Source: a bacterium (GTDB lineage Bacteria; Vulcanimicrobiota; Vulcanimicrobiia; Vulcanimicrobiales; SCRA01). Taken from it: a stretch of DNA of 64,000 nt. Location: positions 12,983-76,982 of the forward strand of contig SCRI01000080.1 in NCBI GenBank assembly GCA_004298675.1. Reading direction: 5' to 3'. Positions within the stretch are counted from its first letter, which is position 1; the number at the start of each line of letters is the position of its first letter. Under the pieces are notes generated by a model. The model saw only the letters and a list, made by a program, of their open reading frames with translations. It did no database searches and had not been told where the DNA came from. The translations under genes and the position numbers were made by a program. Below are positions 13,967-17,598 of this stretch, piece after piece.

Positions 13967-14512
13967 ATGCGTATGACCGGCACCGACTACGATCTGTTGG
14001 AGCAGCAAGTGGCCTCGCTCTTCGAGAGCGAGCGCGATCTCATCGCCAATGCCGCGAACTTCTCCGCGTTCGTCTTCCACGAACTGCCGCTGGTGAACTG
14101 GGCCGGCTTCTACTTCCCTGACCGCGGGGATCTCTTGCTCGGACCGTTCGGCGGCAAACCCGCGTGCGTGCGCCTAGCCGCGGGACAGGGCGTGTGCGGT
14201 GCGGCGTTCACCTCCGGGACCACCGTCGTCGTCGACGACGTCAACGCCTTCGCGGGTCACATCGCGTGCGACGCCGCCTCACGTTCGGAGATCGTGCTGC
14301 CGCTGCTGGTACGCGGCGGGGTGGCCGGCGTCTTCGACATCGATAGCCCCGTCGCGTCGCGCTTCACGCCGCGCGATCGCGCGGGGCTCGAGCGTTTGGT
14401 GACGCGCTTCGTGGCGCTGACGTGGTTCCCGGATGCGTATCCCTGGCGCCCGCCCGCCGAGCCGGAGTTGGCGCGCGGGGTTGACGTGGCAGGGAAGCCA
14501 GGTGTACCATAG
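13967..14512 (+). CDS. msrC: Free methionine-(R)-sulfoxide reductase (GAF domain)
   Basis: Reduces free methionine-(R)-sulfoxide using thioredoxin. A single GAF domain of 181 residues. All three conserved Cys are present in their usual contexts: KPACVRL, GVCGAA and HIACDAAS, followed by SEIVLPL. It begins 17 bases after the RND pump stop, perhaps read through from that operon. It ends just before the M-box leader. Confidence 0.92.
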   Translation: MRMTGTDYDLLEQQVASLFESERDLIANAANFSAFVFHELPLVNWAGFYFPDRGDLLLGPFGGKPACVRLAAGQGVCGAAFTSGTTVVVDDVNAFAGHIACDAASRSEIVLPLLVRGGVAGVFDIDSPVASRFTPRDRAGLERLVTRFVALTWFPDAYPWRPPAEPELARGVDVAGKPGVP

Positions 14513-14520
14513 GCCGGTAT

Positions 14521-14677
14521 CCTCGTTAGGCGAGGCGTCTACACGATGACATGCCGCTGCCCGGAAAGGTCGAGAGACCCCAACGGGTGACCAGGCACCG
14601 CCGAATCAAGGCGTTACCTAATGCGGCTGAGGCCTTCGGGACTCTATAGCGTGTGGTGCTGAAGCTCGACGTTGAGG
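14521..14677 (+). ncRNA. M-box (ykoK leader) Mg2+ riboswitch aptamer
   Basis: The sequence follows the M-box consensus block by block: CGTTAGGCGAGGCGTCTACACG, GCTGCCCGGAAAGGTCGAGA, CCCCAACGGGTGACCAGGCA, then GCGTTACCTAATGCGGCTGAGG, GGACTCTATAGCGTGTGGTG and CTGAAGCTCGACG. The outer helix pairs CCTC at 14521-14524 with GAGG at 14674-14677. It is on the + strand, right after msrC and upstream of a terminator. M-boxes bind Mg2+ and terminate transcription when Mg2+ is plentiful. Here the regulated genes would be the small ORF, the barrel protein and the PAP2 phosphatase. Confidence 0.93.
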
Positions 14678-14710
14678 AAGAAGCCGGACCCGAATCCGGT
14701 CGATTTCTTG

Positions 14711-14743
14711 ACCGTCGGACGCGAGGAGCGCCGACGGTTTTTT
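14711..14743 (+). terminator. Intrinsic terminator of the M-box expression platform
   Basis: ACCGTCGG (14711-14718) pairs perfectly with CCGACGGT (14731-14738), extended inward by CGC/GCG with one bulge, and ends in a run of T. An alternative hairpin, CGGTC at 14697-14701 with GACCG at 14710-14714, shares the terminator's left arm and could act as antiterminator. This is what is expected of an OFF switch at high Mg2+. Confidence 0.85.
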
Positions 14744-14857
14744 GTTGCCGTGAGAGAGGGGGTGATGATCCGCCGTGGACGGCAGTTCCAGTAGTACCTT
14801 GCGCTGCGCGCCCGCGCGGCGCGCAACCTAATGTTTAAATAAGGATGAAGACGTGTC

Positions 14858-15037
14858 ATGTCGTTCTCTGTTTTTGCGCGCTCGCTGAGCGTGCGGCGCC
14901 GTATGCGCGCCATGTTTGCCGAGCCGGAGCGCCAACGAGCCGATCGCTACGATCGCGCCTCGACGTGGGCTGAGCGCCCCTCATACGAGCCGCCGGCCAA
15001 GTCGCGCCTCTACCTCTGGGTTCCGCACATTCGCTAG
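14858..15037 (+). CDS. Small Arg-rich protein (59 aa) downstream of M-box
   Basis: ATG at 14858 to TAG at 15037 gives 59 residues beginning MSFSVFARSLSVRRRMR and ending RLYLWVPHIR. About twelve Arg are present. There is no hydrophobic membrane helix and no signal peptide. AAGGA lies at 14841-14845, slightly far (12 bases) from the start. It sits between the M-box terminator and the barrel gene, with a 9-base gap to the latter, so the two should be co-transcribed. I do not recognise a family. It could be a real Mg-stress protein or a coupling leader ORF. Confidence 0.5.
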   Translation: MSFSVFARSLSVRRRMRAMFAEPERQRADRYDRASTWAERPSYEPPAKSRLYLWVPHIR

Positions 15038-15046
15038 AATCCGAAC

Positions 15047-16930
15047 GTGAAGAAGGTTATCGGGCTTCTGGCGCTGCTCTTCCTCTGCCTCACCGCAGCG
15101 GCATTGGCAGCGGATACGGTGGCGCCGGAAGCGCCGCCTTCGCCGCGGCCGGGGACGTTCGTACTGCACCTCGATCAGCGGATAGTGCTCATCGATCAAA
15201 CGACGAGCGGCCCGGGCGTCACGCCGCCCGAAGGGTCCGGCTTCATCAACGGCTCACCGGCCTCGCCGCTGACGCCGTACGATACGTTCTCGAGCGCGCC
15301 GCTGACGCCGGGCGTCGCCGGCGTCGCGCAGCTTCTGCTTGCGCCAACGTACGTGGGGCGCCGTTTCGACGTCGCCGCGACACTGGGCGCAGGCTACGTG
15401 CGCGGCAGCACGACCAACGCCGCCTACTGGAGTGGGGCGCTGCTGCCAGGCCTGAGCCCGCATCTGGGCGCGCAGGCGCTGCCGTACCGCGTCGTGTTTC
15501 CAACGCAGGCCGGGCAGGACGACGGCGCCGCCGCGCGCGCGTCGCTGCTCTCGTTCTCCGTCTCCGCACGCGACGGCAGTTTGGCGCTGCGCGGCGGCTG
15601 GTTCGATCTGCAGCAGACCGAGCGCTTTGTCTTCGCGCCCCCCGCGCTCACGAACGTGACGCCGGCCATCGGCCTCGCGACGACCGAATCGCTGGGCGGG
15701 GGAGCGCCAACGCTGGACTGGTGGACGCCGGATTCGCCGGCGCTTCCGCTGCACGGTGTCGATCTCGTTGCGCGCCACGCGCTGGGGACGCTCGAGTTGA
15801 CGGACGCAGCGCTGCCCGCGCTGCCCGGTACCTCGGCGCGCTTGACTGCGGCGTCACTGGTGATCGATCACGGCGAGGGAACGCGCTGGTCGGCGCAGAT
15901 GGCGCACGTGGTGACGGGCGGCGATCTGGTGTCCACCACGGTCCTCTTCGGCGGCGACGCGCAACTGCTGCCGACGCCGCAGGGCAATCTCCCGTTGAGT
16001 CAAATCGGCGGCCAGCGCGAGAGCGTGTTCGGCGTGCGCGCAGCGTTCCACGTGGCGCGCGCTCTGAGCGGTGTGGTGGAGCTGGCGCGCTCGACCTACG
16101 CCGCCGATCACGTCGCACAACCTGGTACTGGGAAACCGGGCGGCTACGCCCATGCGGGCCTTGTGCACACGTTTGGGCGCGCGAGTCTGGCGCTGGACTG
16201 GTACCGGAACGAGCCCTACTATGCCACCGTCATCCTGCCGTACGGCGCGCCGGAGAACGTGTGGAGCGTGGCGTGGTCGTGGCCGGGGCAGTGGCTGAAG
16301 TCGAACTACCAGATGATCGACAACAGCGTGGCCAACGTCAACCGCCAAGGGTATCGCGTGGGGTACGCGCTCTCCGGTGGGCCGCTCGAGCTGGCGCTCT
16401 CGGCCGCGCGCTTCGCGCAGATCGATCCCATCACCACGGCCGCTGCCGCCACTACCGGATTCGTGGATGGCTTCTATCTGCCGCAGGACCCCGCGGCCGC
16501 GACGCTTGGGCGCCAGCAGCAGTTCGCGCTATGGGCGGCCTGGCACGCGCGCTTTGGCGACGTGACGCTCGATTACGTCGACGACACCATGCATCGCGCG
16601 GCAGTAGCGCGTGCCCCCGCGGACGCCGTTTCCTACGACGCGCCCGAGCTTGCGCTGACGCTAGCGCATCACTTCAACGCACGCTTCTTGGCTGCGACGA
16701 GCCTGGCACGCTATGCCATGCGTGGCAGCTTCGCGCAAGGCGCCGCGACCAACGTGGACTTCGCGCAGCGCGTGGCCGTGGCGGGGCTGCAGTATCGCGA
16801 GGGCGCGCACACCGCCACGCTGGTGGAGTTCCGGCGCAGCGCGTTCGCGGGACTGCCGATCGCTGGCGGCGGGCTCTCACCCAACTTCACGGGCAGCCTG
16901 CTGATCGTGGAGCAGCGGATCCGATATTAG
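15047..16930 (+). CDS. Outer-membrane beta-barrel protein under M-box control
   Basis: A 627-residue exported protein. GTG start at 15047, Lys-Lys, a hydrophobic core and an Ala-rich cleavage site (ALAAD near residue 22) make a signal peptide. The rest is many alternating amphipathic strands with Gly/Ala turns, and the last residues (VEQRIRY) end in an aromatic, as barrel proteins do. I cannot assign a family. Its place behind an Mg2+ riboswitch suggests an outer-membrane route for divalent cations, parallel to the M-box-linked PE/PPE genes of mycobacteria, but that is inference. It is followed 2 bases later by a PAP2 gene. Confidence 0.75.
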   Translation: MKKVIGLLALLFLCLTAAALAADTVAPEAPPSPRPGTFVLHLDQRIVLIDQTTSGPGVTPPEGSGFINGSPASPLTPYDTFSSAPLTPGVAGVAQLLLAPTYVGRRFDVAATLGAGYVRGSTTNAAYWSGALLPGLSPHLGAQALPYRVVFPTQAGQDDGAAARASLLSFSVSARDGSLALRGGWFDLQQTERFVFAPPALTNVTPAIGLATTESLGGGAPTLDWWTPDSPALPLHGVDLVARHALGTLELTDAALPALPGTSARLTAASLVIDHGEGTRWSAQMAHVVTGGDLVSTTVLFGGDAQLLPTPQGNLPLSQIGGQRESVFGVRAAFHVARALSGVVELARSTYAADHVAQPGTGKPGGYAHAGLVHTFGRASLALDWYRNEPYYATVILPYGAPENVWSVAWSWPGQWLKSNYQMIDNSVANVNRQGYRVGYALSGGPLELALSAARFAQIDPITTAAAATTGFVDGFYLPQDPAAATLGRQQQFALWAAWHARFGDVTLDYVDDTMHRAAVARAPADAVSYDAPELALTLAHHFNARFLAATSLARYAMRGSFAQGAATNVDFAQRVAVAGLQYREGAHTATLVEFRRSAFAGLPIAGGGLSPNFTGSLLIVEQRIRY

Positions 16931-16932
16931 CC

Positions 16933-17598
16933 ATGAACGCGCCGCATACCGCACGGTCGCTGCTGCGCCGGGCGGCAACCCAGATCGGTCTCCCAGTGCT
17001 CGCCGTCTGCCTGTTGACACTGTTTGGCCTCGCCAAGCTGACCGAAGACGTCTTCGAGCAGGAGACGCACCGCTTCGACGTGGGCGCGCTTTTGTGGATC
17101 CACCACTTTGCGACTGCCGGAGCCGATCACATCGCGCTGGGATTGACATTCCTCGGAAACCCCATCTGGGTCATCGCGGTCATCGTGGTGAGTTTCGCCC
17201 TGTTGTGGCTGGCCGGCTGGCGCTCGGAGGCGCTGATGCTTCTGGTTGCGTGCGCCGGCGCATTCGCGCTCGACGTAGGGCTCAAACTGTCGTTTAGACG
17301 TGAGCGACCGGCGCTGTGGCCGCAGCTCGTCTCCGAGACGTCCTACAGTTACCCCAGCGGTCATGCGTTGTTCTCGCTCGTACTCTACGGCTTCTTAGCC
17401 TATGTGGTGGCGTCGCGCTTTCCGCGCGTGGCTTGGCTCTCGTACGGTGGCGCGGGCGCCCTCGTGATTGGAATTGGAGCTAGCCGTTTGTACCTCGGCG
17501 TCCACTGGCCGAGTGATGTCATGGCTGGACTCGCCGTAGGGCTCCTTTGGCTCGTAACCTGCATCGCGTTGCTGCGGTCCGCAGGTCGCGCGGCATGA
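16933..17598 (+). CDS. PAP2-family membrane phosphatase
   Basis: Integral membrane lipid or undecaprenyl-pyrophosphate phosphatase, 221 residues. The three PAP2 motifs are clear: KLSFRRERPALWP, SYPSGHALFS and SRLYLGVHWPSDVMAG, with about six membrane segments. ATG at 16933, two bases after the barrel gene's stop, so probably the same transcript and the same Mg2+ control. Lipid A, phosphatidate or polyprenyl pyrophosphate are possible substrates. Confidence 0.9.
   Translation: MNAPHTARSLLRRAATQIGLPVLAVCLLTLFGLAKLTEDVFEQETHRFDVGALLWIHHFATAGADHIALGLTFLGNPIWVIAVIVVSFALLWLAGWRSEALMLLVACAGAFALDVGLKLSFRRERPALWPQLVSETSYSYPSGHALFSLVLYGFLAYVVASRFPRVAWLSYGGAGALVIGIGASRLYLGVHWPSDVMAGLAVGLLWLVTCIALLRSAGRAA

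Follow-up and report, generated by a model that had tools for sequence, protein, structure and literature searches.

In the 64,000-nucleotide stretch of bacterial DNA analysed here (the window), an M-box Mg2+ riboswitch precedes a small open reading frame, the gene of an outer-membrane β-barrel and a PAP2-family phosphatase gene, and M-box and barrel are found paired again in many related genomes. The analysis supports the existence of an M-box-controlled outer-membrane barrel regulon that recurs across the phylum. We read the window's version of it as a Mg2+-repressed outer-membrane porin operon, the barrel of which is predicted to widen the entry of divalent cations for an inner-membrane importer of the NRMT type, and assign that reading a probability of about 0.6. 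The usual assumption is that general porins give Mg2+ its passage through the outer membrane, and M-boxes are familiar from the genes of inner-membrane importers. The phylum-wide association of M-box, barrel and NRMT suggests that entry at the outer membrane can limit the Mg2+ supply and be regulated. The riboswitch and the inner-membrane NRMT partner are known parts; the outer-membrane regulon appears to be undescribed.

Both RNA elements had been called unambiguous in a first-pass annotation of the DNA, and both are confirmed. A cmscan search matches positions 14515-14683 of the forward strand to the M-box (ykoK leader) aptamer, RF00380, over the full length of the model (1-169 of 169) with a score of 125.5 bits (gathering score 44; E 1e-27), and the genome (3.03 Mb, 98.5% complete) contains no other M-box. 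A strong intrinsic transcription terminator follows on the same strand at about 14710-14743, with a 9-bp stem (GACCGTCGG/CCGACGGTT), a 12-nt loop and TTTTTT. The stem is preserved in the sister species (L032), where the U-tract is interrupted and reads TTTTCTTTT. That broken U-tract, together with the start of the M-box only 3 nt after a GAF-domain gene, might be taken to mean that the riboswitch is a relic at the window and that the barrel gene has its own transcription start or is served by read-through from upstream. We regard this as very improbable: the aptamer is nearly identical in the two species of the genus over the part common to both, while the adjacent non-coding sequence has diverged, and the search for promoter-like sites also speaks against it. 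The first-pass annotation had named an independent promoter between terminator and barrel gene as grounds for doubt; a promoter-like site sought in that interval was not found, and a σ70-like one (TTGACG-N18-TACCAT, 14481-14510, forward strand) lies instead just 5′ of the M-box. In the sister species the equivalent position holds TTGACG-N17-TATCAT, and similar sites, defined by a strict pattern, precede 24 of 67 M-boxes of the order, as against 6 of 1380 random stretches. The GAF gene (13967-14512, forward strand; PF01590/PF13185) stops just 3 nt short of the M-box and so contains the promoter of the latter; this gene, which we take from its motif to resemble free methionine-R-sulfoxide reductase, is mentioned as context and is not thought to be part of the unit. 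Upstream of many M-boxes in the order (L042, L051, L053 and L058 among them), GGTTGAC is found ~7-9 nt 5′ of a TATACT-like hexamer, a spacing that is unlike that of the window's kind of site (N16-18) and perhaps reflects another kind of promoter or the binding site of a regulator.

We take the M-box, by analogy with characterised M-boxes, to be an OFF switch at high Mg2+. When cytoplasmic Mg2+ is ample, the aptamer would fold, the terminator would form and transcription would halt; when Mg2+ is low, the aptamer would open and allow read-through into the genes for the small protein, the 22-stranded barrel and, in this genus, the PAP2 protein. An antiterminator formed by the 3′ arm of the aptamer and the 5′ arm of the terminator is plausible from the sequence (CGACAG with CTGTCG in L048, for example): support for it is modest overall, a locus's own pairing beating mismatched pairing in 28 of 35 loci, and at the window itself the pairing is not significant (p 0.6 against shuffles). 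The barrel would then most likely broaden the passage of divalent cations across the LPS outer membrane, and an NRMT-type NRAMP, encoded in the same operon in most relatives and elsewhere in the window's genome, would import the Mg2+.

The genes that follow on the forward strand are, in length and spacing, those of the first-pass annotation: an ORF of 59 codons (14858-15037), a GTG-initiated barrel gene of 627 codons (15047-16930) and a gene for a PAP2-family phosphatase of 221 residues (16933-17598; PF01569, E 6e-21), separated by 9 and 2 nt, respectively. Conservation of the 59-residue ORF extends across the genus (WAERPSYEPPA..RLYLWVPH.R): its alignment to L123 of the sister species scores 144, where none of 500 shuffles exceeds 37, and there are 16/15/31 differences at the three codon positions. 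A second family of small proteins, different from that of the window (43-51 residues, motif HDDxLRANQ), is encoded immediately downstream of the M-box terminators of many relatives (L034, L035, L038, L039, L041, L045, L048, L054, L055, L061, L062 and L079), and a profile search places it in 14 of 61 genomes, in one of them marginally. One member is located directly before a barrel gene that has no M-box (L168/G044 C21:218743-218859).

The PAP2 protein has all of its active-site motifs (KxxxxxxRP, PSGH and SRxxxxxHxxxD, read in the sequence). Its gene directly follows that of the barrel in both species of the genus and adjoins it in this genus only, so that the envelope-lipid remodelling proposed in the first-pass annotation cannot be counted as a conserved part of the regulon. 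Within the genus, the close succession of the two genes would suit a different account of the operon, in which the barrel is not a Mg2+ channel; it would be a surface protein or a stabiliser of the envelope, produced once LPS is no longer cross-linked by Mg2+, with PAP2 recycling or remodelling envelope lipid phosphates, as in surface remodelling of the PhoPQ type. Some properties of the barrel itself, given next, also bear on that account.

The assignment of the 627-residue protein as an outer-membrane β-barrel, already made in the first-pass annotation, is supported by structure prediction. The AlphaFold2 model built on 37 aligned homologues (m5989cde1a957) has 22 strands, a mean pLDDT of 87.9 and a pTM of 0.86; it supersedes a poor first model based on 10 sequences (pLDDT 64.6). 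An N-terminal signal peptide (judged by eye) and a Pro/Ser-rich linker lead into the predicted barrel, strand 1 of which starts at residue 37. The turns are of 2-4 residues after even-numbered strands and of 6-48 residues after odd-numbered strands, as in outer-membrane proteins. There is no plug of the kind found in TonB-dependent transporters: one was sought, with no Pfam match and with strand 1 beginning at residue 37. The model matches many barrels in structure, TonB-dependent transporters being among the best (VIA-align Z about 13-15), which establishes the barrel fold and leaves the function aside. A derivation of the family from TonB-dependent transporters was considered and dropped, the Z scores being near those of many other barrels and the kin outside the barrel's class being SLH proteins only. 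In sequence, neither the window protein nor any of the ten A1 members has a match in Pfam, the OprB porin family (PF04966) included; NCBIfam yields no model above its cut-off and a profile search of PDB sequences no match. The sole sequence kin found outside the barrel's class are SLH-domain outer-membrane proteins (best E about 1e-22), an affinity that is in keeping with an envelope-stabilising role, as is the conservation of the extracellular loops, which is higher than is usual in porins (0.64, against 0.52 at lipid-facing positions) and unusual for a general porin. Against this, an SLH domain was sought in the window barrel and in the A1 members, and none was found. The long and unusually conserved extracellular loops could close the pore. 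With strand faces assigned by residue alternation and not from coordinates, acidic residues occupy 11% and basic residues 10% of the lumen-facing positions, and the acidic pore lining put forward for checking in the first-pass annotation thus finds no support; the loops are acid-biased (8.0% against 3.5%). An evenly charged lumen could also be that of a barrel that carries another substrate, whether complexed or anionic (Mg-citrate or phosphate, for example) or another metal, with the M-box coupling it to Mg2+ status.

Relatives in the named collection are nearly all Candidatus Eremiobacterota / WPS-2, to which the barrel family is almost confined. M-boxes are present in 96 of 149 genomes of the phylum, and a search of these genomes for the pairing seen at the window, a check that the first-pass annotation had recommended, finds an M-box 0-3.7 kb upstream and on the same strand for 27 of 57 strong barrel copies; linkage by chance is estimated at ~0.1% per barrel copy (5.7 kb, one strand, a 3-Mb genome). 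In the named-contig set, 24 of 39 barrels are M-box-linked, 15 of them with Rfam confirmation (the two sets overlap in their genomes and are not additive). Roughly half of the barrel copies lack a neighbouring M-box, some of them lying in unrelated contexts and several at contig ends, which implies that the barrel is not purely an Mg2+-starvation protein. Permissive Rfam thresholds reveal no hidden M-box before four of the unlinked barrels. M-box-linked copies do not group together on the barrel tree (11 changes, against a shuffled mean of 11.9), which indicates repeated loss or gain of the linkage, with missing flanks adding noise. Among the unlinked barrels, those at L164 and L131 adjoin mgtC and that at L199 adjoins an NRAMP gene. 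Two other M-box-less barrels (L197 and L198) sit after the gene of a thioredoxin-like protein, and at L197 there follows the gene of a His-rich membrane protein that is similar to metal exporters or to urease accessory proteins. M-box and barrel also occur together at L147, on a contig labelled Acidobacteriaceae, which may be mislabelled or misbinned or may represent a transfer. The many barrels that are not beside an M-box, and the surroundings of L197 and L198 in particular, can be added to the charge balance of the lumen on the side of another substrate.

The partners of the M-box weigh in the opposite direction. Of the relatives' M-box loci, a set of 58 has 2.5 kb or more of sequence downstream; among these, MgtE_N followed by NRAMP is the most frequent operon (25 loci) and NRAMP alone comes next (10). 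The barrel enters such operons as barrel-NRAMP-MgtC, NRAMP-barrel, NRAMP-MgtC-barrel, MgtE_N-NRAMP-barrel or without a transporter, and barrel, NRAMP and MgtC are thus joined in common M-box operons in either gene order. Four loci of the set, the window and its sister included, contain just the barrel, or the barrel and PAP2. The first-pass statement that the riboswitch controls these genes instead of a known Mg transporter therefore holds at the window and fails for most relatives, in which an NRMT-type NRAMP and mgtC share the operon. The published signature of NRMT Mg2+ transporters is DxxG on helix 1 and TxxA/T on helix 6, with no metal-binding Met (PMC8806188). DxxG is present in 48 of the 49 NRAMPs near M-boxes; helix 6, readable in 34, has TxxA in 11 and TxxS, slightly different from the published motif, in 23, and the metal-binding Met in none. 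By these residues, the NRAMPs near M-boxes are essentially of the NRMT Mg2+-transporter type. In three M-box/NRMT operons (L039, L041 and L061), an OprB porin that is unrelated to the barrel stands in its place, which we read as selection for porin function in the regulon.

An envelope-stabilising or surface role for the barrel is made rather unlikely by these arrangements: outside the genus the barrel has no PAP2 beside it, the commonest partners of the barrel are a Mg2+ importer and MgtC, and OprB porins substitute for it in the three operons just mentioned. Transport of another substrate is less probable still, and we would give it little credence, the recurrent partners being NRMT and MgtC and not proteins that transport organic acids or transition metals. 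A porin that widens divalent-cation entry remains our preferred reading, and the idea of an outer-membrane Mg2+ route, first put forward from the window alone, is strengthened.

The window's own genome has three NRAMPs, one of which is an NRMT by signature. It is encoded in an MgtE_N-NRMT-PucR-GS (glutamine synthetase) cluster (L172, G000:C8:26937-38028) that lacks an M-box; MgtE_N-NRMT is the commonest M-box operon in relatives, yet no hidden M-box was found before this cluster, even at permissive Rfam thresholds. CorA, the MgtE channel domain and OprB were each sought in the genome and not found, and its one MgtC is on another contig. Since the genome has a single M-box, the only Mg2+ riboswitch found in it controls the outer-membrane side of uptake, provided that none was lost in assembly gaps.

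The phylum is little-studied, comes from soil and has a two-membrane envelope. A testable function is hereby offered for an uncharacterised barrel family and for the small proteins, and there is a cultured relative, Vulcanimicrobium alpinus, with an LPS outer membrane (PMC9758169). Literature searches, mostly without subscription papers, returned nothing clear on M-box regulation of an outer-membrane protein outside the mycobacteria. M-box-nrmT operons are known in Clostridia and Deltaproteobacteria, often with an MgtE N-domain protein (PMC4072509), and the most frequent M-box operon of the order to which the window belongs resembles them in placing an M-box before an NRAMP-related Mg2+ transporter. 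A term search of that paper brings up no mention of an outer-membrane gene, whereas the operon in the window has the barrel and no transporter. The SLH-domain barrels of other classes of the phylum are similar in sequence in the barrel region, but the window family lacks the SLH domain and the coiled-coil tether. TonB-dependent transporters share the 22-stranded barrel; that of the window differs in being plug-less, its signal peptide and linker running straight into strand 1.

The closest parallel is the Mycobacterium tuberculosis operon M-box-Rv1805A-pe20-ppe31-mgtC (PMC12810186), in which the riboswitch is likewise followed by a conserved small ORF and by outer-envelope proteins tied to Mg2+ uptake, along with mgtC. 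The mycobacterial comparison had been drawn in the first-pass annotation and is borne out, the small ORFs being conserved here too. They resemble Rv1805A in their position after the M-box and not in sequence; the PE/PPE proteins belong to the mycomembrane, whereas the protein here is a β-barrel with no sequence relation seen; and the mycobacterial expression platform is translational, with Rho, where the window has an intrinsic terminator. It is tempting to go further, and we do so tentatively, at rather less than even odds: the Eremiobacterota may have an outer-membrane channel devoted to Mg2+ uptake, under riboswitch control and acting in series with an inner-membrane NRMT, with the conserved small protein as an accessory, as an independently arisen counterpart, in LPS diderms, of the PE/PPE Mg2+ system of mycobacteria.
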